Origin: Paenibacillus bovis
GTDB taxonomy: Bacteria; Bacillota; Bacilli; Paenibacillales; Paenibacillaceae
Reading direction: 5' to 3'
DNA: 64,000 nt
Assembly (NCBI RefSeq): GCF_001421015.2
Contig: NZ_CP013023.1
Coordinates: 4,085,501-4,149,500, forward strand
The notes beneath the pieces are model-generated. The model did no database searches. It saw only the letters and a list, made by a program, of their open reading frames with translations, and was not told the DNA's origin. The position numbers and the translations under genes were made by a program. Position 1 is the stretch's first letter; every line of letters begins with the position of its first letter. This document shows positions 1-10,633 of the stretch, piece by piece.

Positions 1-411
1 GCGAAAAATGCGCTCACTCCGGGTAAGTAATCGTATTTGCGCACTGTCCATTTCCAGAAAAAGACGAACCAGTCGATTCTGCAAAGGCTGTTCCGTTCCT
101 GGCTGGATCATCAGCAATTCCGGCAGACTCAGCACCTGTGGCTGTACATCTTCCGGCAATACCGGATGCAGGAATTCATGCGACGCATCCCAGTCCTCCT
201 GGCGATAGACCGTAGTATGAATATCATACAGACTGCTGAGCGTTTTACTTTCTTCGAGTACACGCTGTTCCAGCTTGTCCAGCATCTGATCCTGATAATC
301 AACCATATTAACGAGGAATTCATTGACCAGCTGACGCATCAGCTTGCGATCTTCCAGCTGGCTCAGCTTATGAATCCGGTCCTGCATGAGGGACTCCAGC
401 ATTTCTTTCAT
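1..411 (-). CDS. Unknown protein, N-terminal 137 residues (cut by window edge)
   Basis: I do not recognise this gene. It starts at the ATG at 411 behind a GAGAGGGTGATCC ribosome site and runs out of the window at base 1. The visible start is helical and charged (MKEMLESLMQDRIHKLSQLE), with many Gln, Glu and Leu, and shows no signal peptide or membrane segment. It lies about 55 bases downstream of the degenerate PP2C gene, on the same strand, so it is probably the next cistron of the kinase/phosphatase/FHA/tube/sheath cluster. It might be a structural or baseplate component, but nothing in the sequence proves this. The longer plus-strand frame over the same bases is a shadow. Confidence 0.7.
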   Translation of the reverse strand, partial: MKEMLESLMQDRIHKLSQLEDRKLMRQLVNEFLVNMVDYQDQMLDKLEQRVLEESKTLSSLYDIHTTVYRQEDWDASHEFLHPVLPEDVQPQVLSLPELLMIQPGTEQPLQNRLVRLFLEMDSAQIRLLTRSERIFR

Positions 412-465: not shown

Positions 466-2229
466 TTATCTGGCAATCCGGCTGTCTGTCAGTCCGTACT
501 GTGTTCCCGAACCTGTACCGGCTGCTGTACCGCTTGTGCCGGAAGCTGTTGTATCCGGGCTATTGGCTGCTGTACCGGCCGCATTTGTGCCTGCTGCAGC
601 TGCTGGCATGCTGTTGTTCATTGCTGCTGCAGCCGCTGCCTGGGCAGATGCTGCGGATGCCGCATCAGCAGCACTTTTGGCTTCTTCGGCAAGCTTGTCC
701 TGCTCGGCTTCGACTTTGCTGATTTTGCGTTCCATCGCCAGTACTTTCTCCAGCTTATCGATATCCTGGTAAATGCCCTGTGCATCCCCATAAGCATCTA
801 CAGCCAGATCATAGTTGCCGGCATCCAGTGCCTTGTCTCCACGCTTTTCCTGTTTCTCGGCGCGCAGTTCCTGGGTTTGCTGCTGAATATCATCCAGCTT
901 GGCCTGTGTATCATTGAGCTTGGTTGCTACATCTTTTTGGGCATCTGTGTAGGAAGCCTGAATAGCTTCTTTGCTCGCTTGTTCATACAGCTTTTTGGCT
1001 GCGCTGTATTCGCCGGACTGGAACTTGAGATCCGCATCTTTGACTGTTTCATTTACAGCGGCAAACGATTTGGTCTGATCCAGCTTTTTCTGGATATCCG
1101 CTTCACTGAAAATCGGATAATTCTCCGCCTGCTTTTGCGCCAGCTGATAACTGATAATGGCCTTATCGTATTCCTGGTTCTTGAGATGACCATCACCATC
1201 GACGAGCGCCTGGGCAATTTTCATCTTGTCGGTCAGTGTTATCTTGTGCAGGCGATCCTTGATCTTGATCGCCGCATTACGGGCTTGACTATAAGACTTG
1301 AGTGCTTTGCTGTAATCGCCCTGCTGGGTATACTGATCACCGGTCTGCTGATACTCGACCAGATTGGCCGCCGCTTCGGCTTTTTTCTCGATATTGCGAT
1401 AGGTGGCCCATAATACGCCCCCACCGAGTACAAAAAATACCAATGCAGCAATCAGAATACGACGGATAATCCGCCATTTTTTCTTGGGATCATCCTGATA
1501 CACCTTGTTCATATAAACGGCTGCTGCCGTATAGTTGTCATAGTAATAAGATTGCTTGCTCAGCAGTACCTCTTCCAGCGTATCCGTGAATTCCTCCGGG
1601 CCTTTGGCTTCAGATAGCGAATCCAGAATTTCGGTCAGGTCGAGACCTTTCCACAGTCCTGCACTGCTCAGTAGCAGTACATCGCCATCGACCATACGCG
1701 TTTTGCGGACAAAGGACATTCCAAATCCTTCCGGCATGCCAAGGTACTGCATCAGATTACTGCTCTCTTCGTGATGATATACACGGTCCGGTGCCAGCTT
1801 GCCGCGGTCCGCCATAATCTGGGCGAGACTCTGGTCATTACTTTTGAGCAACAAACGACCGTTACGCAGATGATGCAGACGGGTATTCCCGCTGGAGGCA
1901 CACACATACTTGGTATAGTCGGTAACGACAACAAGCAGACTGGCCTTGAGGCGCATCCGGCGACTCTCGAACTTGAGCGTCTCATGTGCTTCTTTTAACC
2001 ATCTGCGTATGCGCCATTTGGACATTGTCGGCTTTTCCATAAAGTTCTCGAGAATGATCTTGGCAGCCAGCTCGGCGCTGCGCTGCTGCTGATCTTCATC
2101 CAGCCCATCCGCCAGTACATAACAGGCCATATCATCCAGTTCCGTATATGCAAAATAATCACGATTATCGAGCAAAGAGCCTGCTTCCGACACAAAAGCC
2201 GTCTTTACATCGCTATTTTCCCTTCTCAT
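466..2229 (-). CDS. Degenerate PP2C-like membrane protein with long helical/TPR-like extracytoplasmic tail
   Basis: A 587-residue protein. Residues 1-245 resemble a PP2C phosphatase: the metal motif ADG is kept (about 40-42) and the late DN is kept (231-232), but the usual SDG aspartate motif reads SSAG (188-191). Metal binding is therefore probably impaired and the domain may sense or bind rather than dephosphorylate. One membrane segment follows (about 258-277), then some 230 residues of TPR-like or coiled helical repeats containing repeated 'GDYSKAL'/'GEYSAAKKLY'-type motifs, then an Ala/Gly/Thr/Ser-rich tail. The N-terminal domain should face the cytoplasm. It lies 11 bases downstream of an intact PP2C gene. 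Topology and loss of activity are inferred from residues only. Confidence 0.8.
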   Translation of the reverse strand: MRRENSDVKTAFVSEAGSLLDNRDYFAYTELDDMACYVLADGLDEDQQQRSAELAAKIILENFMEKPTMSKWRIRRWLKEAHETLKFESRRMRLKASLLVVVTDYTKYVCASSGNTRLHHLRNGRLLLKSNDQSLAQIMADRGKLAPDRVYHHEESSNLMQYLGMPEGFGMSFVRKTRMVDGDVLLLSSAGLWKGLDLTEILDSLSEAKGPEEFTDTLEEVLLSKQSYYYDNYTAAAVYMNKVYQDDPKKKWRIIRRILIAALVFFVLGGGVLWATYRNIEKKAEAAANLVEYQQTGDQYTQQGDYSKALKSYSQARNAAIKIKDRLHKITLTDKMKIAQALVDGDGHLKNQEYDKAIISYQLAQKQAENYPIFSEADIQKKLDQTKSFAAVNETVKDADLKFQSGEYSAAKKLYEQASKEAIQASYTDAQKDVATKLNDTQAKLDDIQQQTQELRAEKQEKRGDKALDAGNYDLAVDAYGDAQGIYQDIDKLEKVLAMERKISKVEAEQDKLAEEAKSAADAASAASAQAAAAAAMNNSMPAAAAGTNAAGTAANSPDTTASGTSGTAAGTGSGTQYGLTDSRIAR

Positions 2230-2240
2230 CGGTACCCCCG

Positions 2241-3104
2241 TTAGCCCTGCTGCATAATGATGACAGTCGCATTATCCTGATGCTTCAGATTTTTTTGCTC
2301 AATACTATCAATGATCTGATCAGCAGCATCCTGCGGATCGTCTGTACTTGTCAGAATAGCTTCTAGTTCCACTTCTGTCAGCGCGTCATGAATACCGTCG
2401 CTGCACAGCAGTACTTTGTCCCCTGGACGCAGTACGAATGGATAGTCTCCTATTTCCATACTGTCAAAAGCTTCATAGCCCAGATAATTGACCAGCTGCT
2501 TGCGCTGTGGACTGCTGTCTGCCTGCTCCCGGGTCATCTCGCCAGCGAGTACTTTTTGCTGCAGTACGGCACCCAGCGTATGCATGGAGTTGACCGGAAT
2601 AAAGCTGTTATTGCGAAATACGCTGATAATGCTGTCGCCTACGGCTCCCCAGTACAGATGATGTCCGTTAATGACAACGGCAGCTAGCGTAGTGCCTCCG
2701 TGATTGCCTTTGAGCTGCTGGACAATCTCGCGGTTGCTCGCATAGGCCGCTTCTTCCATATAATCCGGAATCTGCTGGTAATTCTGTACTTCATCATATT
2801 CCCGCAGGAAAGTCGTAACTGCCAGCGTACTCGCCATTCTTCCGTTGGCCAGACCACTGATTCCGTCCGCCAGAACAGCTAGTGTACCGGCTGCAGTCGT
2901 TTTGCTGGCAAAATAGTCATCCTGTTCGGCGCGTGTTCCAATCGTCTGGCCATTACCGATCAGCACCTGAGAAGCTTCTCTGGCTGTCTCGCCTACCAGA
3001 ATGAGATCTCCCTGCATTCCTGCTACTAAACGGCGGCGCCAGATGATGAGTACGATTAGTACAATACAGGCACAGAGCACGATAATATAAGGTATTCCAC
3101 TCAT
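2241..3104 (-). CDS. Membrane-anchored PP2C-type Ser/Thr protein phosphatase
   Basis: PP2C phosphatases are Mn/Mg-dependent enzymes that remove phosphate from Ser/Thr. I chose the ATG at 3104 (287 residues) because TAGGAG lies about 10 bases upstream, overlapping the stop of the preceding FHA gene; an in-frame start at 3128 would sit inside that gene. A membrane segment occupies about residues 5-25, so the catalytic part is cytoplasmic and tethered. The metal motifs are complete: VLADGISGL, GDSIISVF, CSDGIHDAL and DNATVIIM. It probably reverses phosphorylation by the kinase encoded at 8422-9444. This corresponds to the PpkA/PppA pair in type VI secretion; the link here is inferred from context. 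Confidence 0.9.
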   Translation of the reverse strand: MSGIPYIIVLCACIVLIVLIIWRRRLVAGMQGDLILVGETAREASQVLIGNGQTIGTRAEQDDYFASKTTAAGTLAVLADGISGLANGRMASTLAVTTFLREYDEVQNYQQIPDYMEEAAYASNREIVQQLKGNHGGTTLAAVVINGHHLYWGAVGDSIISVFRNNSFIPVNSMHTLGAVLQQKVLAGEMTREQADSSPQRKQLVNYLGYEAFDSMEIGDYPFVLRPGDKVLLCSDGIHDALTEVELEAILTSTDDPQDAADQIIDSIEQKNLKHQDNATVIIMQQG

Positions 3105-3117
3105 ACGATTCGTTCTC

Positions 3118-3654
3118 CTATTCTGCAATCATGGCGTTGTTTTCCCATTCGAAGTGGGCACCGCACAACGGGATAAAGATAAATTTGCTGTGTCCCAGCT
3201 GGATCACATCATACGCATTCAGCTCTACCGGCGAATACACGGCCTCATTGTTATGGTAAGCCAGTCCCGAAGCATCACCCGGCAGCAGATAGAAGTTGCG
3301 CTTTTTCGGATCATAGACGATAACGGCATGATTACGTCTGGAAATTGTGTTATCACCAATAATACGGATATGCATTTCTTCAGCACGACCGATAAAGTTT
3401 TTCTCCGCCATAATACGATAATCCTGACCCAATTGTGGTCCTTCGATGCAGACCAGCCAGCCGGTAACCGGATGAATGCCTACTGTCTCTCCGAGGTAAG
3501 GCATTGTTTTGTCTTCTTCATCCTGAACACGTACAGCAGGACGCTGATTCGGATACGCCGCTTCAGCAGCTACAACCGTATTGCAATAAGGGCAAGTACT
3601 TCCGTGTCTTCTTGTACTGAACATGTGTCCATTCGGGCATCTGGTCAAACTCAT
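3118..3654 (-). CDS. FHA-domain protein with putative N-terminal zinc-binding motif
   Basis: 178 residues. The first 25 residues carry CPNGH...CPYC, a plausible zinc ribbon or knuckle. Residues about 85-175 form an FHA domain, a phosphothreonine-peptide binding fold: FIGRAEE stands for the GR motif, ISRRNHAVI for the SxxH motif, and NNEAVYSPVELNAYDVI for the later strands. The usual NG of the NGT motif is degenerate (GLAYHNNE). No membrane segment is seen, so it should be cytoplasmic. It sits between a membrane FHA gene (20 bases upstream) and a PP2C gene that begins 13 bases beyond its stop. A role reading the phosphorylation state set by the neighbouring kinase is inferred. Confidence 0.85.
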   Translation of the reverse strand: MSLTRCPNGHMFSTRRHGSTCPYCNTVVAAEAAYPNQRPAVRVQDEEDKTMPYLGETVGIHPVTGWLVCIEGPQLGQDYRIMAEKNFIGRAEEMHIRIIGDNTISRRNHAVIVYDPKKRNFYLLPGDASGLAYHNNEAVYSPVELNAYDVIQLGHSKFIFIPLCGAHFEWENNAMIAE

Positions 3655-3673
3655 TTAGGCTCATCTCCCAATC

Positions 3674-4210
3674 TTAATTTACGAGTAGTCTGGTGTTCGC
3701 AATATATAAAACGTCTCCCGGTCCAATCTGATAGGGACGTCCGATTTCGATTTTATTGGACTTATTTTGGGCTGCAGAACGAATACCGGTACCATTGCTG
3801 GAATCTGCATCTTCTACATACCATTCGCCATTGACACAATTCAGTACGGCATGCTGCGAACTAATGAGTGAAGCATAGTCGCTGCCGGATAGATCAATAT
3901 CCACTTTGTTGTGACGGGTATTTTTGCCGATCAGCATGCTGGTTTCTCCAACGATATCCCAGCCTTTGATCCGCTCGCCGAATTCATCGATAAGAATAAT
4001 TTCGCGCACTTCCTGATAAACGGGTACATCGGTTTGATTTTTGAAAAAATGGTGATAGGCATACCAGCCGAAAGCAACAACCATAGCCAGAATCGCTACA
4101 ATTTTTAGCAAAATCGATGGAATTACAAAAATATACACCAGTGTAGACAGCGAGATCAGTGCAATACCGATATCAATACACCATAAACCTGCGGTTCTTT
4201 CCGATTTCAC
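3674..4210 (-). CDS. Membrane-bound FHA-domain protein
   Basis: 178 residues. Two hydrophobic segments lie at about 10-30 and 32-52 (LISLSTLVYIFVIPSILLKI and IVAILAMVVAFGWYAYH), so both ends should be cytoplasmic. The C-terminal FHA domain (about 92-175) has good motifs: MLIGKNTRHNKVDIDL, SSQHAVLNC, and DADSSNGTGI, matching the GR/SxxH/NGT pattern with G-K in place of G-R. It probably anchors a phosphothreonine protein at the membrane. Its start, 27 bases after the J-domain gene, places it in the same transcription unit as the tube and PP2C genes. The Fha protein of type VI secretion is the closest functional parallel, by inference. Confidence 0.88.
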   Translation of the reverse strand: MKSERTAGLWCIDIGIALISLSTLVYIFVIPSILLKIVAILAMVVAFGWYAYHHFFKNQTDVPVYQEVREIILIDEFGERIKGWDIVGETSMLIGKNTRHNKVDIDLSGSDYASLISSQHAVLNCVNGEWYVEDADSSNGTGIRSAAQNKSNKIEIGRPYQIGPGDVLYIANTRLLVN

Positions 4211-4237
4211 TTATGTACAACCTCCATCACTTCACGA

Positions 4238-4690
4238 TCATTTTTTTCCGGGGCCAAAATACTGTTCAAAAATTGCCGAGGTATCCAGCGGATTTTTCTT
4301 TTTGTTGTCATCTTTTTTGATAGATACATTATTATTTTTGGGATTAAAACCAAAAAAGCGCTCAAACTGGGTTTGCACATCACGCGGGTCAAAATCTTTG
4401 CTGCCTGCCGATGCAGTCGTTTTGTTGGAAGCACGGTTGCCTGCTGTCTGTCCATTGGGAGCAGTGCGACCTGTTGATGCTCCTGCCAGCTTTTGATCGT
4501 GTTGTTGACGGGTATCGTCATTACTCAGAATCTCATAAGCCTGCTGTACCTGCTTGAACTTCTGTTCAGCTTCTGTACTGCCCTGATTGGTATCCGGGTG
4601 GTACTGTTTGGCGAGCTTGCGATAGGTCTGTTTGATCTCGGCTGCTGTAGCTGTTCGGGATACCCCCAACACCTCATAATAATTGATCAA
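4238..4690 (-). CDS. Short DnaJ-like J-domain protein
   Basis: 150 residues starting at a TTG at 4690 with GGGAGG 9-14 bases upstream. Residues 1-65 form a J domain ([17 protein letters not shown], then YHPDTNQ with the essential HPD), which stimulates the ATPase of Hsp70/DnaK. The zinc-finger and substrate domains of true DnaJ are absent. The remainder is Ala/Thr/Asn-rich, then ends with two similar short motifs, [12 protein letters not shown] and [11 protein letters not shown], each preceded by charged residues. A specialised co-chaperone for assembly of neighbouring proteins is a reasonable inference. An overlapping minus-strand frame at 4207-4521 is a shadow. Confidence 0.88.
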
Positions 4691-4737
4691 GCGATCCTGC
4701 CTCCCTTAATAAAAAAAGCTACTTAAAAGTAAGTTAT

Positions 4738-4761
4738 GGAGCCGCGCAGCTGCACGGCTCC
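4738..4761 (-). terminator. Hairpin between tube and J-domain genes, possible attenuator
   Basis: On the minus strand GGAGCCG pairs with CGGCTCC around a GCAGCTGC palindrome, 12 bases after the tube stop codon. A run of seven T follows only about 20 bases later, so this is not a perfect intrinsic terminator. It could partly stop transcription or protect the 3' end of the tube mRNA, making tube protein in excess over downstream products. Confidence 0.5.
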
Positions 4762-4772
4762 AACTTGGTGGA

Positions 4773-5198
4773 TTAAACTGCGTATCCGCCCTCGATTTTC
4801 GCGAGTTCGGTTTTGTCTTTCTTTTGTTTGATGTAGATCGAGAATTGACCTACGCCTTCTACATCACCGAAGTGCTCTGTGTAATCTACAACAAAAGCGT
4901 TAGGGAAGTAGATTTTGCGGATCACTTGATCAGCAGCGATAACTTCCAGTGTTACTTTGCGGTAGCAATCTGCTTTCTCAGCAGGTACCAGGGACCACAG
5001 TGCCAGTTTCATGGTGTCATCTGCGTTGTCACCATCGGTAGCTGTGATGATTTTACCTGTGATTCTCAGTGTGGAACCAACGTCTGTGGAGCGAGCGTTG
5101 GAATCGTCCGGTGTATCTGTGTCATAGATCACCGTTTGGATGTTGTCCATGCCCAGTTCAATTGTTTCTGCGCCTTCTACTTTGAGTGTGAAACCCAT
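4773..5198 (-). CDS. Hcp/TssD-like tube protein (inferred)
   Basis: 141 residues behind a near-ideal ribosome site (AAGGAGGAACACAA, ATG at 5198), as expected of an abundant protein. It is beta-rich with no signal peptide or membrane segment. The C-terminal part (IRKIYFPNAFVVDYTEHF, then GVGQFSIYIKQKKDK) follows the pattern I recall for TssD/Hcp tube proteins of Bacteroidetes type VI systems (FkDAYVVeYsEnF ... fTIsareI). Hcp-like proteins form hexameric rings that stack into the inner tube of contractile injection machines. Its place immediately downstream of the sheath-like gene supports this. The length is slightly under typical Hcp (about 150-170). The assignment is from remembered motifs, not a search. 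Confidence 0.65.
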   Translation of the reverse strand: MGFTLKVEGAETIELGMDNIQTVIYDTDTPDDSNARSTDVGSTLRITGKIITATDGDNADDTMKLALWSLVPAEKADCYRKVTLEVIAADQVIRKIYFPNAFVVDYTEHFGDVEGVGQFSIYIKQKKDKTELAKIEGGYAV

Positions 5199-5508
5199 TT
5201 GTGTTCCTCCTTGATATAAGTGCTTTTTTTAATTTATGTAAAAGAGCGAGCCTGTTAGGGCGCTCCCAACATACAACCTGAGCATTATACCTGAGTACCG
5301 GCACAACTACGCTTGCTATGAAGTTCCTGTAATAAGTCCTAAAGTAAGCATACCGCCGATGACTCTATGTATAACGGTTCCGGCTTGTTACCCGATGCTT
5401 GTACAGCATATTGCCGATAAGGCATCAGGCGAGGCAGGGATGCCAGACGGTTGTACCCGTCTTCACATTGCGGAATCCCTGCCGTGTCCTGTTGCAAATA
5501 ATTAATGA
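5199..5508. other. Structured intercistronic region between sheath-like and tube-like genes
   Basis: 310 bases without a gene. They contain the nested inverted repeat described separately (5433-5483) and a weaker GAGCG/CGCTC hairpin near 5246-5270, followed on the minus strand by a T/A-rich run. I found no convincing promoter. The region could process or attenuate the transcript so that tube and sheath are made at different levels. Confidence 0.5.
5433..5483. repeat. Nested inverted repeat after the sheath-like gene
   Basis: GGCAGGGA (5433-5440) pairs with TCCCTGCC (5476-5483), enclosing AGACGG (5445-5450) paired with CCGTCT (5457-5462). It starts about 25 bases beyond the sheath stop codon. 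There is no T-run after it on the minus strand, so an mRNA-stabilising or processing element is more likely than a terminator. Confidence 0.6.
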
Positions 5509-7692
5509 TCAAGCTCTGGCAGCGCTGGTCGCCTTGGTAATCGTAACTTCCAGGTTCTTCACATTGCCGTTAAATACCAGATCAATATTGCAAAGATTAT
5601 TTTTCTCGTCGATCACATAATTCAGATCGTCGCCGTCCTGAACAATGGAATTGACTGCGCCTTTGGCACCGAGCCAGCGGCTCTTCTGACTGCTTGGATT
5701 GTTGCTAAAGAATTTGACGATATTCTCGTATTTGAAATCGCTTGTCTGGAAGCGCAGGATACGTTCTACATACGTACTGACCAGTGTTTTGTAGATTGAA
5801 TCAAAGCCGTCTTCGGACATGGCGAGACTTCTTGCTTTGTATACGGTAATTCTGCGGATATCTTTGCCCTGCAGCTGCGCATTTTCGGAAGAGAATACGA
5901 AGCCGAAGTTACGGCGGTTAATAGAATCCTTGATGCTGTTTGTGAAACCGGTAATTTCCTTGGCCATCGTGGTTACGAAACGCAGGCTGTTATCGCCGGA
6001 TTCGATATCAAAGCGTACGCCTGGAGCGTCGCGCTGTACATCCTTGAACATTTCTTTGAGATATTCTGGACACTGATACGCAGATACCAGACCAGCAGCC
6101 ACATAAGCAGCTCCCACGTAGACACCTTCGATCCACAGTTTGAGAATATCTTCTTTTTCCTTGGACAGCTGCACACCGGCTTCGGTCTGCATCATGCGGC
6201 TATCGATAATAACGCCGGATTTGTCTTTTGGAATAATCGTAAAGTTCGGTACGCAAGGAATCGCGAATTCGCTGTAATCCTGGCGCAGCAATGGTGTACA
6301 TTTCTCCATGAACTTGTCGATACCGGAAGTCGCCACATGGTTGAATGTCGTTTCTTCACCGGATTCAAAGTTGAAGAACAGCTGTACTTTGTAATTTTTG
6401 ACGATCTGCAGCAGCATGGACAGGGATTCCAGCGTGTTGCCTTCCTGCTTGGTCGATTTCTCCGTTCCTTTGAAACGGGCACGACTGACACGAACATTGC
6501 CTGCTGCTTCCATTTCAATAGATGGTACGATACCGAACCAGATCGTGTCGGTAAAGTCGTTTTTGGAGTTGACCGTGTTCAGGTATGTCTCCAGACGCGG
6601 TGCGTTTGTACTTTTCACCAGCATATCGAGCTTGGTATTGGTAATGAGCAGTGTTGGTGCCATACCGCGGTTTTTGGTTGCATACTGGTCGAAGAACATC
6701 TTCACACCGAGCAGTTTCTCTACCAGAGGTTTGACAGCTTTTACAAATTCGTCTTTGGCATTTTTGTAGAACTCCAGATACGTATTGTAGTTCTGTACTT
6801 CCAGCTCTGTATTGACTTCCGTGTTAATCGCAGGAAGCGGACAGAATGTACGAACAACCAGATCTTTGACGTACATAGAAGGGTTCTCGCTCACACTCTC
6901 ATAATCTTCTTCAAAAACAGAGATGAGCTCGGTTGTGCCGTTATCGTCCAGCAGCATCAGCTCGGTCGTATCCGCTTTGGGAGCTTCTACGATCTGCAGT
7001 TCGCCGCCTTCACCAATCGTCAGCATACCGATACGGAATTCTTCAGCCGTCTGATCATCCTGGGCACTTCCCAGCAGCAGACGAGTTTTGATATCTTCAA
7101 TAGCCAGTGGCAGCATCGCCATAACATTGTTATAGTTCTGGCTGGCTTCCTCGAACATCTGGTTGAGCTTGTCGCCCATTTCCAGTTTTTTCGGATCTGC
7201 TTCATCCAGCTGGTCATACTGTCCATACATATAATGAATTTCTTTACGTACCTGACGGATATCATCCATTACTTTTTTGGGAGAGATCATATCCAGCAGA
7301 TTCTCGAATTTAAAGTCAACGTTAGTGATTCCCTGGCTGCGCTTGGTGTCGATCAGGGTAAACAGCATTTTCAGGAAATCGTTGTTCTGGTCGATGCGAA
7401 TTTCGGAAATGCAGTCATCAGCAATACCTTCCGGCTTTTTGAGCGTATAGACTACTTTTTGATTCGCTGCATTAAAGAAAGAATATACAGTCGGTGTAAA
7501 TTTGTTCAGAAAATCATCGAAGCTGCGCACCAGCAAATGCTGGCTGATTTCCTTGATTTTATCGTCACTGAGGCTATCGATACCTTTGACATCACCAACC
7601 AGGGTGATTAGATCGAGCTTTTCCGGGTTAATTTCTTCAAAAAGCATTGTACGGTTCGTTTGATTAATAATATCCAACGCAATTTCCTCCAT
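5509..7692 (-). CDS. Contractile-sheath-like protein, TssB/TssC-like fusion (inferred)
   Basis: 727 residues from the ATG at 7692 (GAAGG just upstream; a GTG at 7704 is possible). Residues 1-160 resemble TssB, the small sheath subunit: LITLVGDVKG (28-37), SFDDFLNKFTPTVY (57-70), and VDFKFENLLDMISPKKV (125-141), which fits the TssB pattern 'f.s..DfsP..v'. The rest has TssC-like traits: DTIWFGIVPSIEM (382-394), IEGVYVGAAYVAAGLVSAYQ (521-540), INRRNFGFVFSSENAQLQG (591-609) and a beta-strand C-terminus. No membrane segment or signal peptide is present, as expected for sheath subunits that polymerise in the cytoplasm around the tube. It is followed by the tube-like gene. No catalytic motif was seen. 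The family call needs a profile or structure search. Confidence 0.6.
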   Translation of the reverse strand: MEEIALDIINQTNRTMLFEEINPEKLDLITLVGDVKGIDSLSDDKIKEISQHLLVRSFDDFLNKFTPTVYSFFNAANQKVVYTLKKPEGIADDCISEIRIDQNNDFLKMLFTLIDTKRSQGITNVDFKFENLLDMISPKKVMDDIRQVRKEIHYMYGQYDQLDEADPKKLEMGDKLNQMFEEASQNYNNVMAMLPLAIEDIKTRLLLGSAQDDQTAEEFRIGMLTIGEGGELQIVEAPKADTTELMLLDDNGTTELISVFEEDYESVSENPSMYVKDLVVRTFCPLPAINTEVNTELEVQNYNTYLEFYKNAKDEFVKAVKPLVEKLLGVKMFFDQYATKNRGMAPTLLITNTKLDMLVKSTNAPRLETYLNTVNSKNDFTDTIWFGIVPSIEMEAAGNVRVSRARFKGTEKSTKQEGNTLESLSMLLQIVKNYKVQLFFNFESGEETTFNHVATSGIDKFMEKCTPLLRQDYSEFAIPCVPNFTIIPKDKSGVIIDSRMMQTEAGVQLSKEKEDILKLWIEGVYVGAAYVAAGLVSAYQCPEYLKEMFKDVQRDAPGVRFDIESGDNSLRFVTTMAKEITGFTNSIKDSINRRNFGFVFSSENAQLQGKDIRRITVYKARSLAMSEDGFDSIYKTLVSTYVERILRFQTSDFKYENIVKFFSNNPSSQKSRWLGAKGAVNSIVQDGDDLNYVIDEKNNLCNIDLVFNGNVKNLEVTITKATSAARA

Positions 7693-7819
7693 TCTGGCCT
7701 TCACGCTATGTATACAACGTTCACACCCGGAGCCGGAAGCAGCTGAGGAAATACGAATACGATTAAAACGGTGTTTGCAATTCCCATTTCAGTTCCATGA
7801 CTTCCGAGTTACAAAAAGT

Positions 7820-7850
7820 ATCATACAATATGAATAGTATAGGTTGTCAA
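7820..7850 (-). promoter_or_regulatory. Candidate sigma-A promoter for the sheath-like gene
   Basis: Minus-strand TTGACA (7845-7850) and TATGAT (7820-7825) are separated by 19 bases, a longer spacer than the usual 17. Transcription from here would leave a leader of roughly 120 bases before the ATG at 7692. The long spacer suggests a weak or activator-dependent promoter. Confidence 0.45.
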
Positions 7851-7907
7851 TTTTTTGAATTCAGCCTTTATTATAGGAAAATACGACTATAAATACATAA
7901 GGGATAT

Positions 7908-7954
7908 TGTCGAAATCAGTGAATTATTCCTTCTTACCGAAAATTACTGTCGAA
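7908..7954. promoter_or_regulatory. Two exact Spo0A boxes (TGTCGAA)
   Basis: TGTCGAA occurs at 7908-7914 and again at 7948-7954, in the same orientation, 40 bp apart. This is the consensus heptamer bound by the sporulation regulator Spo0A in Bacillus. Both lie 60-105 bp upstream of the candidate -35 element of the sheath-like gene. Both are exact and in the intergenic region, which makes a real role plausible, though unproven. Confidence 0.5.
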
Positions 7955-8354
7955 AAAATAACAATATAAATTAATTTCTATTACTTTTTTACTTTTAATG
8001 AAAAATATGCTATTCTGCGTCGATACAGGTCTTTAGTCCTGATATGGGAAAGCACGTTCGCCTTTTCAATTAAAAGTCATTTTGATAAGGAATTTGAATT
8101 TCCCTTTACCTTACTGGGCGATATCAAAAATTAAGTATCCATTTATTAAGTATCGTCTGTAAAATCTTATCTTTTTATATTAACTTTAGAAAATTCACCG
8201 AAACTTTAGTACTATTTTTGAGTTGCACAAATATGATTCTAAAAATAGTCCATTTTTGAGCAGTTTACAGATTATTTTTGCTTTTTTGCGTCTTTATATG
8301 TAATATTCTTCTAATTTGTAAAATGATTTGAAAGAAAGTTTTACATTCTTCTAA

Positions 8355-8387
8355 CAAAAAAAACCACACAATCGACGTGTGGTTTTC
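8355..8387 (-). terminator. Intrinsic terminator of the kinase gene
   Basis: On the minus strand AAAACCACAC pairs with GTGTGGTTTT across a 7-base loop and continues into a run of T. It lies 35 bases after the kinase stop codon and separates the kinase transcript from the sheath-tube operon. Confidence 0.9.
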
Positions 8388-8421
8388 GTTATATACTCTT
8401 GTTAGATGATGGCATGATTCG

Positions 8422-9444
8422 TTATTTGGATAAATGAGTGCTTTCTTTCATACTCTCTTCTGCATCGGCAAATGCAGATAAAGAAGCTGTGTCCGGTACA
8501 GTGATGGACTCGGGTTCAACTGCTGCAGAAGCCCCCTTTTTGCTGCGTGTCAGCACCAGATTTCGCTTCCAGAAACGTTCTGCCTGCACAGCAATTTTGA
8601 ACCATTTCAGCGAAGTACAGCGCTTATCAGCCGACACCGCCAATCCCCAGTGAATAACCCGCGAAAGGATTGGAGAAGATACCTGCTCACTTCCGAGCTT
8701 TTCCAGGGTATCGTTAAACAGACGCTTGGGCACATCGACCGGAGCCCTGCCCTGACAGCAAAAATAGAACGTAGCGGCCAGACTATAAATATCCGATACC
8801 GGTCCCTGACTTGAACGCCCGGAATAAAACTCGATCGGCGAATAGCCTGCAGTGGTAAGGATACTGTGGGTTTTATTCTGATACCGTACTGCCGATCCAA
8901 AATCCAGCAGCTTGGTCTGTCCATCTTCGACCAGCATAATATTGCTAGGCTTTACATCCCGGTGAATATAACCGAGTTGATGAATATGCTCCAGCGCTTC
9001 AATAACCGGCAACAGTCTGGACTGCATAAAAGCAGGGTCAGCCTGTGGCGCAGATTGACGGATATAACGATCCAGCGTAATGCCGCGACAGTATTCCATT
9101 ACCAGATAAGCCGTATTATTTTCCTCAAACTCGTCCTCATATTTCACAATACCCGGATGATTCAATTCACGCAGAATACTGCCCTCCTGACGGAAGGTAG
9201 ACAGCATTTCGGTATATTTAGATTTTAGCCCTGGCTGGGAACATTGCACAGACCGGCGATCACGACTGCGCTCCACCAGCGCTCCTGGGAAAAATTCTTT
9301 GATTACATGCAGGGTGCCCTTTTCCATATGTCTTGCCACATAGACAACAGATAATTCGCTGACAGATAATGTGCGGCGAATCAGATATGTATTTGCAAGC
9401 TTCTGATTGCGGGTAAGGGCCGGATTGTTCATTTTCTTGTTCAT
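8422..9444 (-). CDS. Hanks-type Ser/Thr protein kinase
   Basis: 340 residues from the ATG at 9444, which has GAGGTGG five bases upstream; the 33-residue in-frame extension upstream has none. The kinase core has VIK with the ATP-anchoring lysine at about 49, HRDVKPSN (161-168) with the catalytic aspartate, and DFG (181-183), plus TAGYSPIEF as the activation-segment end. The glycine-rich loop is poor (TLSVSELSVVYVA lacks GxGxxG). No membrane segment or PASTA domain is present, unlike PrkC at 23472-25694, so it is soluble. It lies upstream of the sheath/tube/FHA/PP2C genes on the same strand, and is the likely writer of the phospho-sites the FHA proteins read. That partnership is inferred. Confidence 0.9.
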   Translation of the reverse strand: MNKKMNNPALTRNQKLANTYLIRRTLSVSELSVVYVARHMEKGTLHVIKEFFPGALVERSRDRRSVQCSQPGLKSKYTEMLSTFRQEGSILRELNHPGIVKYEDEFEENNTAYLVMEYCRGITLDRYIRQSAPQADPAFMQSRLLPVIEALEHIHQLGYIHRDVKPSNIMLVEDGQTKLLDFGSAVRYQNKTHSILTTAGYSPIEFYSGRSSQGPVSDIYSLAATFYFCCQGRAPVDVPKRLFNDTLEKLGSEQVSSPILSRVIHWGLAVSADKRCTSLKWFKIAVQAERFWKRNLVLTRSKKGASAAVEPESITVPDTASLSAFADAEESMKESTHLSK

Positions 9445-9883
9445 CGTCCACCTCTTCGCAACTTTCCCCGGCATAGCGGTCCTGTACGGGCAATCTTTTG
9501 GGATCGATACCCACCTGCCGGCGAGGAATAAATAACATGCCATGGTACTATCATATTTTATGCACAGAAAAGCCTGTACAAATGATGTATGGCCGTTATT
9601 ATAGCCATTTTAGCATGAAATCAGCAGAATGTGATTCCTTGAATAGAGAAATTTGCCCGATTTCAGCAAATTTCCGCTTTTTTTGGTGTTTGGTTGCTTG
9701 GTTTCAACTTTTCAAGCTTATCTACTGTAATGGCAAAAACGGTAAAAGCATCGTCTATGCCCTTACCGCTTTTATATTCGGCTACTATTGAAGACGAAAA
9801 GAGCATACAGACCGAATAGAGCAGATCCATTATCCAAACAGGAAAGTCTCAAGTACACTCAACAGCGCTTACGGATTAGCTGC
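9445..9883. other. Intergenic region upstream of the kinase
   Basis: 439 bases without a supported gene. The minus strand has an extended -10 like TGCTAAAAT and a nearby TATAAT around 9595-9620 that could start the kinase transcript, but no good -35 element. GGTAAAAGC...TTACCGCTTTT near 9742-9774 forms a weak hairpin that may end the HEAT-repeat transcript. Confidence 0.4.
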
Positions 9884-10489
9884 TTATCGCATCGTTCTCT
9901 CGACTTTCCAGTCGCTATTACGCATAATACGAATAGCGCTCTCTGCAATCATCGATACGCGCTCATCCGGGTCTTTCTCCGCTGTGCGCAGCAGCATGGA
10001 TTCGAACTCCTGCCAGCCTACAAAGCTGGTTGCAAATACAGCAGATTGTCTGACTCGCACATCCGTATCCTGCATATACCGCGTAAAAATTTCTATTATA
10101 TCAGGTCGTGCCTGAAAGTAGGAGGCAATACCTAGCCGGCAAATCGCATCTATTTTGTCTTCTGTAGTATCCGCCTGAAGACACCACTGCATCACTTCAT
10201 CGGCCGAGCCTACCATTCCCGTACTGTACAATAAATCAGCCGCCTCCTCGGCAGAAGGGCCGGATAAGAGCAAATACGGAATACTGGTAGACTGGTCGAT
10301 AATCACATAAACCAGCGTTGAATGATCATCCATCACAAACGTATAATATCCCGCTTCCGCCATCAGTTCTCTTCGTTCCACCGGTTCATGCTGCGCTTTT
10401 AACATGGATAGACGACTTTCCCTGGATAACGCTTCCAACAGATTCATATAAATGACCTGCGGCCGGGTACATAATCGGATCTGCAACAT
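9884..10489 (-). CDS. HEAT-repeat protein of unknown role
   Basis: 201 residues from the ATG at 10489, which follows AAAGGAGGAGTGAGACGT; a longer in-frame start lacks a ribosome site. The C-terminal half shows HEAT/armadillo-like helical pairs (DTDVRVRQSAVFATSFVG, DPDERVSMIAESAIRIMR). The middle part (FVMDDHSTLVYVIIDQSTSI) looks beta-rich. HEAT repeats usually serve as protein-binding scaffolds. There is no signal peptide. It is on the same strand as the kinase but 440 bases away, so co-transcription is not assured. I cannot name a substrate or partner. Confidence 0.75.
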   Translation of the reverse strand: MLQIRLCTRPQVIYMNLLEALSRESRLSMLKAQHEPVERRELMAEAGYYTFVMDDHSTLVYVIIDQSTSIPYLLLSGPSAEEAADLLYSTGMVGSADEVMQWCLQADTTEDKIDAICRLGIASYFQARPDIIEIFTRYMQDTDVRVRQSAVFATSFVGWQEFESMLLRTAEKDPDERVSMIAESAIRIMRNSDWKVERTMR

Positions 10490-10633
10490 ACGTCTCACTC
10501 CTCCTTTTGGGGTTGGGATAGAGATAGTTATATTTAATATTACTATATTCCCAGCTTCAAGAATCATTTTTCTAAATTTTGTAATTTAATTTCCATATTA
10601 CTTATATTCAAAGCAGCTATTTTGTGGATATAC

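Follow-up and report, generated by a model that had tools for sequence, protein, structure and literature searches.

A Paenibacillus bovis gene cluster that very probably encodes a tail-derived injection machine

Results

A minus-strand cluster of tube, spike and signalling genes

The subject of this work is a gene cluster at the left end of a 64-kb stretch (the window) of a 5.35-Mb contig of Paenibacillus bovis, which very probably encodes an injection machine of Bacillota with a tube, a spike and toxins. An earlier note on the window had read these genes as a contractile, type VI-like machine with its own phosphorylation switch in a Paenibacillus-like host. We found that every reading frame that it named is present on the minus strand, with the domains as stated (Pfam and NCBIfam scans), and that this single minus-strand cluster extends beyond the left window edge. 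The features are listed in Table 1, in which genes left of the window are numbered on L001, a stretch reaching left of it (window coordinate = L001 coordinate - 18000).

Table 1. Genes and sites of the cluster. Positions are window coordinates unless prefixed with L001.
Feature	Position	Strand	Basis or remark
Ser/Thr protein kinase	8422-9543	-	Pfam Pkinase E 1e-34
Terminator-like hairpin directly 3' of kinase gene	8359-8387	-	12 pairs, T tail
Sigma-70-like promoter sequence upstream of presumed-sheath gene	7886-7913	-	promoter scan
Presumed sheath	5509-7704	-	731 aa from first GTG; database entry 9 codons shorter, 722 aa
Hcp/TssD-like tube protein, 141 aa	4773-5198	-	weak repeated TssD/Hcp matches
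J-domain protein with HPD motif	4238-4690	-	DnaJ E 1.9e-27
FHA protein, hydrophobic N-terminal stretch	3674-4210	-	FHA E 5e-10
Soluble FHA protein	3118-3654	-	FHA E 7.8e-7
PP2C phosphatase, hydrophobic N-terminus	2241-3128	-	PP2C_2 E 7.5e-15
Degenerate PP2C (pseudo-PP2C) with TPR-like C-terminal part	466-2229	-	NCBIfam Stp1 E 2.5e-15 (under model's cut-off); TPR E 2e-4 and weaker
441-aa conserved protein, baseplate candidate	L001:17086-18411	-	first 137 residues in window 1-411
229-aa protein	L001:16400-17089		
898-aa Hsp70-like protein	L001:13690-16386		
278-aa protein	L001:12198-13034		
221-aa protein	L001:11415-12080		
VgrG-like protein, 471 aa	L001:10019-11434		
Pentapeptide protein	L001:8653-9987		
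181-aa protein	L001:8111-8656		
DUF4280 PAAR-like protein, 178 aa	L001:7574-8110		DUF4280 E 1.8e-35
Second VgrG, long C-terminus, 969 aa	L001:4646-7555		

The hairpin after the kinase gene suggests that this gene has its own transcript. Both the hairpin and the promoter sequence are leads only, since the region holds no more terminator-like sites than its shuffles do (10 observed against 9.7) and a number of promoter-like sites equal to chance (21 against 20.5).

Conservation of the cluster

A scan of GTDB species genomes gave 336 pattern-matching stretches, 315 of which encode a relative of the presumed sheath protein, and the best 80 of these 315 (70-99% identical) served as the set of close loci. 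They come from Paenibacillus, Brevibacillus, Aneurinibacillus, Lysinibacillus, Sporosarcina, Solibacillus, Clostridium and metagenome-assembled genomes (MAGs), together with one Acetivibrio record flagged as unverified/contaminated; the host's own presumed sheath shares 98-99% identity with its counterparts in P. wulumuqiensis and P. dauci. The presumed-sheath and tube genes were found in all 80 loci, the J-domain, both FHA, PP2C and pseudo-PP2C genes in 79, the 441-aa and 229-aa genes in 76, the Hsp70-like gene in 75, the kinase gene in 70 and the 278-aa gene in 42, many of the loci ending before the later genes. Of the 80 loci, 79 show the genes found in the same order, L087 being rearranged; in L084 and L088 the 441-aa, 229-aa and Hsp70-like genes were unmatched, and PAAR-like and VgrG genes follow the pseudo-PP2C gene. 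Downstream of the 278-aa gene, the host and genomes G105, G478, G066 and G501 carry VgrG, pentapeptide, PAAR-like and second VgrG genes; these make up five of the seven genomes of the close type that were read downstream, and four of the five have the 181-aa gene. In G484 a PAAR-like gene comes after the signalling genes with no VgrG match, and in G351 the next 20 kb gave no PAAR-like or VgrG match.

Under even sampling of the phylum, 13 of 398 Bacillota genomes, representing 8 families, encode the presumed sheath. It is present in 40 of 197 genomes of the host's family and in 28 of 151 genomes of family f34, which belongs to another class of the host's phylum that we take to be Clostridia and in which close and distant types (see below) both occur. 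The distribution is patchy, in that the host's genus has 4 genomes with and at least 12 without the gene among those listed.

Tube, spike, tip and toxins

The 141-aa protein, for which a database search returned 1287 relatives, is weakly but repeatedly Hcp/TssD-like, as the earlier note had proposed; the scores are modest yet in agreement. The TssD model (PF17642) matched the window protein with E 0.007, 17 of 41 close relatives at E <=0.01 (best 4.9e-5) and 10 of 19 diverse members at E <=0.1 (best 3.2e-5). The 19 diverse tubes (from the window and further loci) share nine invariant columns when aligned, and their profile, when searched against 177,635 distinct PDB sequences, gave Hcp1 6bdc as its best match (E 0.0089, over the second half of the tube). 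We take both the TssD family and Hcp1 6bdc to be of the Bacteroides type. Comparison of the tube with five Hcp sequences by hhalign gave no match. Where databases name the tube protein, it is often as 'membrane-associated protease 1'. Two tube genes stand in tandem in L247 (G318) and L262 (G361), and a second, shorter one lies nearby in L255 (G456).

The earlier note had advised looking for a spike left of base 1, and two VgrG-like proteins (Phage_GPD and Phage_base_V matches) and a DUF4280 PAAR-like tip are indeed encoded there. The combination that the note had set as its refutation, absent fold matches together with absent baseplate and spike genes, is thus not what the sequence shows. The VgrG family profile matched 17 PDB sequences at E <=0.001, of which a type VI secretion system (T6SS) VgrG was the best (E 1.8e-23) and which also included Pvc8 and Afp8, the spikes of extracellular contractile injection systems (eCIS); a vgr_GE match (E 2e-7) was under that model's cut-off. 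The tip protein was additionally matched by the IglG model (E 1.8e-6). Left of the long VgrG lie two pieces that share sequence with its middle and end in toxin domains, namely CdiA_C (E 1.2e-19) and an XOO_2897-like deaminase (E 1.4e-16). These spare pieces (L001:2089-3315 and L002:18644-19996) are related to the C-terminal half of VgrG, and after each comes a small gene without a family match that may encode immunity. The 181-aa family is Imm11-like in two of four near members scanned (the host's own protein gave no such match) and in all four far members, and for this reason adaptor and immunity roles are not separable. For the genes lying between the two VgrGs (pentapeptide, 221-aa and 181-aa) a chaperone role was also considered, and was not adopted.

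Two more VgrG islands are present in the host, at C1:3668400-3688399 (L289) and C1:439000-458999 (L290). Both have pentapeptide and 181-aa-like genes and a VgrG with a long C-terminal part, and L290 also has DUF4280. Such extra islands elsewhere in the genome are a feature of T6SS.

The presumed sheath

The 722-aa protein has 2501 relatives at E <=0.001, none of the 120 listed having a Pfam domain, and where databases name it, it is a 'transcriptional regulator' or hypothetical. Family scans and a PDB sequence search with profiles gave no convincing match, and PHROGs and Pfam scans of 68 relatives gave only scattered matches, each in at most three members. The best PDB matches of its profiles were weak and implausible (parvovirus-type NS1, E 0.004; a metastasis suppressor, E 0.013; another, E 0.64) and were rejected.

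We also compared the presumed sheath and the tube by hhalign with TssB, TssC and Hcp (E. coli SE11, plasmids) and with the sheaths of T4, P2 and Bacillota phages, and no comparison exceeded 2.2% probability. Seven control pairs, which we took to be homologous, were run alongside. It can be seen that only Bacillota phage sheaths against T4/P2 passed (77%), while the other six failed: TssC with phage sheath (0.2%), TssC with T4/P2 (0.1%), TssB with phage sheath (0.2%), Hcp with gp19 (0.06%), Hcp with P2 FII (0.07%) and gp19 with FII (0.45%). The failed sheath comparison therefore says little. Genes from stretches of E. coli SMS-3-5 and SE15 that proved to be without T6SS, as did one of K-12, served as negative controls. 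VipB and TssC had no match in the host genome at E <=10.

Two further lines were set aside. The best local match of the presumed sheath to eCIS-type sheaths lies on an 'ARTL'-like motif, a motif that is important in sheaths. Its score of 17.2 barely exceeds that of the reversed control (16.8), and two cluster profiles unrelated to sheaths scored higher (pseudo-PP2C 18.7, Hsp70-like 22.1), and so it was not used as evidence. A viral-contig scan with P2 FI recovered close P2 relatives (80 loci, 84-99% identical) and was likewise unused.

As no family, PDB or profile comparison gave a convincing match, the name 'sheath' rests on context. In all 80 close loci the gene immediately precedes that of the tube. 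Of 61 further loci, 59 have a same-strand open reading frame (ORF) of 100-260 aa lying within 900 bases downstream, although several genomes are counted twice in that set and the size and distance criterion is not specific by itself. In three of the T6SS stretches that we compared tssC likewise precedes hcp, which is not the case in E. coli SE11. Median identity to the window is 78% for the presumed sheath, 86% for the tube and 80% for the soluble FHA protein, against 37-57% for the other cluster genes. Were the 722-aa protein not a sheath at all, the cluster might encode a secretion device of tube and spike that does not contract, or the protein might serve as an assembly scaffold. The missing sequence link to any sheath speaks for this alternative; its constant place before the tube gene, its rank among the best conserved proteins and the lack of any other large conserved structural candidate all tell against it, and we regard it as unlikely. 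We conclude that the sheath likeness claimed in the earlier note for 5509-7692 is unsupported by any sequence method used (Pfam, PHROGs, PDB search, hhalign), and that the protein is, from its context, likely a one-piece sheath.

Baseplate candidates, ATPase and absent families

Left of base 1, where the earlier note had expected baseplate and ATPase genes, conserved unnamed genes lie at the baseplate position, and their 441-aa, 229-aa and 278-aa products are putative baseplate proteins; no known baseplate, ClpV or eCIS AAA+ family was matched among the cluster proteins scanned, and the candidate ATPase is instead Hsp70-like. The Hsp70 similarity of the 898-aa protein is weak (E 0.04 in Pfam, 0.002 in NCBIfam). 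At most positions of the two phosphate motifs, 71 or more of the 74 rows of its family keep the residue, and a distant locus, L248, shows strong similarity (E 7e-61). This protein may take the place of ClpV.

A Pfam scan of the cluster proteins at E <=1 matched none of TssE, TssF, TssG and TssK; it was not genome-wide and leaves room for remote homology. IcmF_C of the membrane complex had no match in the genome at E <=10, and the TssJ and TssL families were unmatched in the cluster, where alone they were sought. Likewise no Clp/AAA+ family exceeded its cut-off among the cluster proteins scanned, again not a genome-wide search; one sub-threshold AAA_15 match (E 0.29) fell on a coiled stretch. 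Since ClpV, the membrane complex and the known baseplate families were sought, mostly in the cluster, and not found, 'T6SS' should not be used as a name.

A decaying prophage tail could account for spike genes of tail type. However, head, terminase, tape measure, portal, integrase and lysis families were unmatched among the cluster proteins scanned, the cluster is conserved across 8 families of the sample, and the host has its prophage-type sheath elsewhere, a conventional Phage_sheath_1 gene of a prophage or tailocin at C1:1929749-1930228 (L190). We regard a prophage remnant as very improbable indeed.

The signalling module

The catalytic motifs of the kinase are intact, all 71 aligned rows retaining the Lys, HRDxKPxN and DFG residues, and its gene often lies 1-4 kb before that of the presumed sheath. 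The metal-binding active-site Asp of PP2C is kept in 73-78 of 80 rows, those without it looking like wrong-frame picks by the alignment script, and the H, P and D of the J-protein motif are kept in 61, 69 and 62 of 73 rows. In pseudo-PP2C, 70 of 80 rows have Pro, Ser or Ala in place of the SDG Asp, and because of this the protein is probably inactive; some other Asp residues are kept (for example in 74 of 80). A hydropathy script run on the window's own proteins found hydrophobic stretches in FHA (residues 6-52), PP2C (7-38) and pseudo-PP2C (252-278) and none in the other cluster proteins, suggesting that these three (the FHA protein being that at 3674-4210) are probably membrane-anchored. One FHA protein is weakly similar to TagH (E 0.005). 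The soluble FHA protein (3118-3654) is conserved like the presumed sheath and tube, far above the other signalling genes, and this conservation hints that it may touch tube or sheath directly.

The threonine phosphorylation pathway of the Pseudomonas aeruginosa H1-T6SS is PpkA-PppA-Fha1. The present module resembles it in having a kinase, a PP2C phosphatase and an FHA protein beside tail genes, and differs in its second FHA protein, its pseudo-PP2C-TPR and J proteins, and the weakness of the FHA-TagH similarity.

Distant relatives of the presumed sheath, 21-31% identical, were first met in genome G248. Its locus encodes presumed sheath, tube and VgrG, homologues of the 441-aa, 229-aa, Hsp70-like and 278-aa proteins (the Hsp70-like one of 994 aa, E 0.005), a DUF4280 protein (E 2e-6) that carries an AHH-like nuclease domain (E 1.5e-4), and an Imm11-like protein (E 3e-9). 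Homology across the clades was found for VgrG (E 1.4e-32), the 441-aa (2e-16), 229-aa (4.7e-33) and Imm11-like (7.6e-14) proteins and, in some members, the 278-aa protein (L244, 2e-17; a mixed set failed, E 0.009). Eight distant core loci were examined (L244, L245, L248-L251, L256, L263). The Hsp70 model matches ORFs in four of them (L244, L245, L248, L256), and in the remaining four an ORF of 525-533 aa occupies that place.

The kinase, J, FHA and PP2C models match none of these eight loci. The phospho-genes may thus be a separate stress or signalling module that neighbours the cluster by chance. Against this, the J, both FHA, PP2C and pseudo-PP2C genes lie beside the tube gene in 79 of 80 close loci, most of these genes are also present in loci of other families with presumed sheaths 54-75% identical (for example L247, L253, L254, L258, L260 and L262), and G248, its core otherwise without phospho-genes, has a kinase-like gene (L265:7647-9218, E 3e-25) about 15 kb past its presumed sheath; we think a chance neighbour quite improbable. 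A regulator that is not part of the minimal machine fits the absence from the distant core loci. The gene set behind the switch proposed in the earlier note is conserved in this clade, and does not extend to those eight loci; from sequence comparison, it is likely that the module acts as a phospho-switch of the machine.

Names of the distant-clade sources include Selenomonadaceae MAGs. Selenomonadaceae have an outer membrane, so that monoderms may not be the only hosts of the system.

Co-occurrence with DUF4280 proteins

DUF4280 is encoded in 19 of the 398 Bacillota genomes, in 12 of the 13 with the presumed sheath as against 7 of the 385 without it (Fisher 2.3e-17), and in family f34 in 24 of 28 positive as against 1 of 123 negative genomes (Fisher 1.1e-22); both p-values are inflated by relatedness, and the samples share the positives G248 and G351. 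The starts of the presumed sheath and the nearest DUF4280 gene are 2-18 kb apart in 23 genomes (16 of f34 and 7 of the phylum sample). In G351, outside this count, the nearest DUF4280 on the contig is 200 kb away, and in the remaining positives the two genes fall on separate contigs, chiefly in draft genomes. G378 (C41), a genome without a presumed-sheath match, has three DUF4280 matches within 6 kb.

The seven DUF4280-only genomes of the phylum sample were read over 4-20 kb, and proteins of three of them were scanned: in G222 Phage_sheath_1 stands beside the tip, in G448 AAA+ proteins were found, and in G509 two proteins were uninformative. Two of the seven therefore resemble conventional eCIS loci, and together with the spike match to Pvc8 and Afp8 this favours an alternative in which the present cluster too encodes an extracellular system, with particles that are assembled in the cytoplasm and released by lysis or secretion. 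Several observations point the other way. A scan of 19 proteins from the cluster and its surroundings matched no AAA+ ATPase, Phage_sheath_1, fibre or lysis family, although several of the 19 match nothing at all, and the same scan does detect Phage_sheath_1 and AAA+ in the G222 and G448 loci. Three regulators have hydrophobic stretches, with genes kept in 79 of 80 loci, and further VgrG islands occur elsewhere in the genome. In addition, VgrG has a long variable part that toxin pieces share, whereas Zhang et al. (2012) describe the VgrG of PVC-type systems as never toxin-fused. An extracellular system is consequently of low probability in our judgement.

Discussion

We consider it likely that the cluster encodes an injection machine that is derived from a tail, anchored to the cell and probably contractile, and that its lineage is separate from those of the T6SS and eCIS described so far. 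Several results weigh against this. Besides the eight distant core loci that lack the phospho-genes, the presumed sheath shows no homology with TssB/TssC or phage sheaths that our searches could detect, and contraction is for that reason presumed. The TssD score of the window tube is 16.6 bits against a Pfam curated cut-off of 25.8, a profile of close tube relatives by itself finds no Hcp among PDB sequences, and plain Hcp (PF05638) was not found in the host genome at E <=0.001. The C-terminus of the 969-aa VgrG itself matches no toxin family in family scans, the baseplate candidates match nothing convincing in Pfam or PDB, no trans-envelope channel was recognised, and DUF4280 is lacking in 4 of 28 presumed-sheath-positive f34 genomes and 1 of 13 in the phylum sample. 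Of the earlier reading, then, the genes, the cluster and the tube likeness stand, and spike and tip genes lie where it had said to look; the sheath and the switch are likely, not proven. Its type VI-like label is borne out by the Hcp/TssD-like tube, VgrG and PAAR-like tip, and not by any canonical baseplate, membrane-complex or ClpV gene. The machine is not a canonical T6SS, though it probably works in a similar way.

In such a machine, a tube of the Hcp-like protein would be built on a baseplate of the 441-aa, 229-aa and 278-aa proteins around a VgrG hub, and would be enclosed by the 722-aa presumed one-piece sheath. The spike would be VgrG tipped by the DUF4280 PAAR-like protein, with effector domains carried on the VgrG C-terminus or, as regards the distant clade, the DUF4280 protein, and with immunity-like genes close by. 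On contraction, spike and toxin would be pushed out across the membrane and wall of the firing cell and into an adjacent one. The balance of kinase and phosphatase could shift when contact or envelope stress is sensed on the outside, and the FHA proteins could read the phosphorylated state, so that firing would be set by the three probably membrane-anchored proteins (FHA, PP2C and pseudo-PP2C) together with the kinase and soluble FHA protein. Assembly or sheath recycling, an AAA+ task elsewhere, might fall to the Hsp70-type ATPase, joined in this clade by the J protein.

The closest likenesses to known systems are partial. With T6SS subtype iii of Bacteroidota the cluster shares a tube closest to the TssD family and Hcp1 6bdc and a VgrG spike, and with the Francisella T6SS a DUF4280 PAAR-like tip as in IglG (PMC5349215, PMC5014421). 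It differs from both in that TssB/TssC, TssE/F/G/K, the membrane complex and ClpV were undetected, in its Hsp70-like ATPase and in its monoderm host. With eCIS, PVC and Afp it shares a tail-derived character and a VgrG-type spike, and differs in that Phage_sheath_1 and AAA+ were unmatched in the cluster. A monoderm-host precedent is the Streptomyces contractile injection system with its membrane protein CisA, as outlined in PMC12237407. The haloarchaeal T6SS (PMC11566945) similarly fires from inside, having one membrane to cross and no outer-membrane complex; it is built of recognised Cis proteins, whereas here the tube, spike and tip alone are recognisable.

A phage-like system was raised as a possibility for the DUF4280 proteins of Gram-positives by Lays et al. 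(2016; PMC5349215). The passages of the 2021 PAAR survey (PMC8651086) on Firmicutes place Phage_GPD next to DUF4280, as here, report no conserved eCIS or T6SS genes around DUF4280, and speculate about an unknown phage-like translocation system; the tube, presumed sheath, baseplate candidates and ATPase named here go beyond those passages. A table in PMC3482391 puts firmicutes among T6SS-bearing phyla, and its accompanying passages hold no description of this cluster. We found no description of the machine in the open literature, subscription papers and preprints being outside that scope.

The cluster is thus a strong candidate for the suspected phage-like system behind Gram-positive DUF4280 proteins, which like VgrG-type proteins were pointed out in 2016 and have had no machine assigned to them, and it offers named genes in easily grown Paenibacillus, Brevibacillus and Lysinibacillus. 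We see about an even chance of a wider picture, namely that it belongs to a separate, widespread Bacillota branch of contractile weapons (Bacilli, Clostridia, Selenomonadaceae MAGs) that are fired from inside through the Gram-positive envelope, in which Hsp70-family ATPases replace those of the AAA+ ClpV type and of which one clade is gated by a membrane-anchored switch of kinase, phosphatase, pseudo-phosphatase and FHA proteins. If so, T6SS-like antagonism would extend to monoderms, and two questions would arise, namely how a thick wall is crossed by a spike and whether an Hsp70 can do the work of ClpV. The database names given above for the presumed sheath and tube would call for correction.

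Two neighbouring loci complete the description. A HEAT-repeat-like protein is encoded upstream of the kinase gene (window 9884-10567); it was matched in only 3 of the 80 related loci and is probably outside the system. About 26 kb left of the window, on the same strand as the cluster, L002:8078-12414 (C1:4055578-4059914) encodes a second Hsp70 (567 aa), which had no match in the 80 related loci, whose reach stops short of that distance, and a J-domain/TPR-like protein of 635 aa with hydrophobic stretches.

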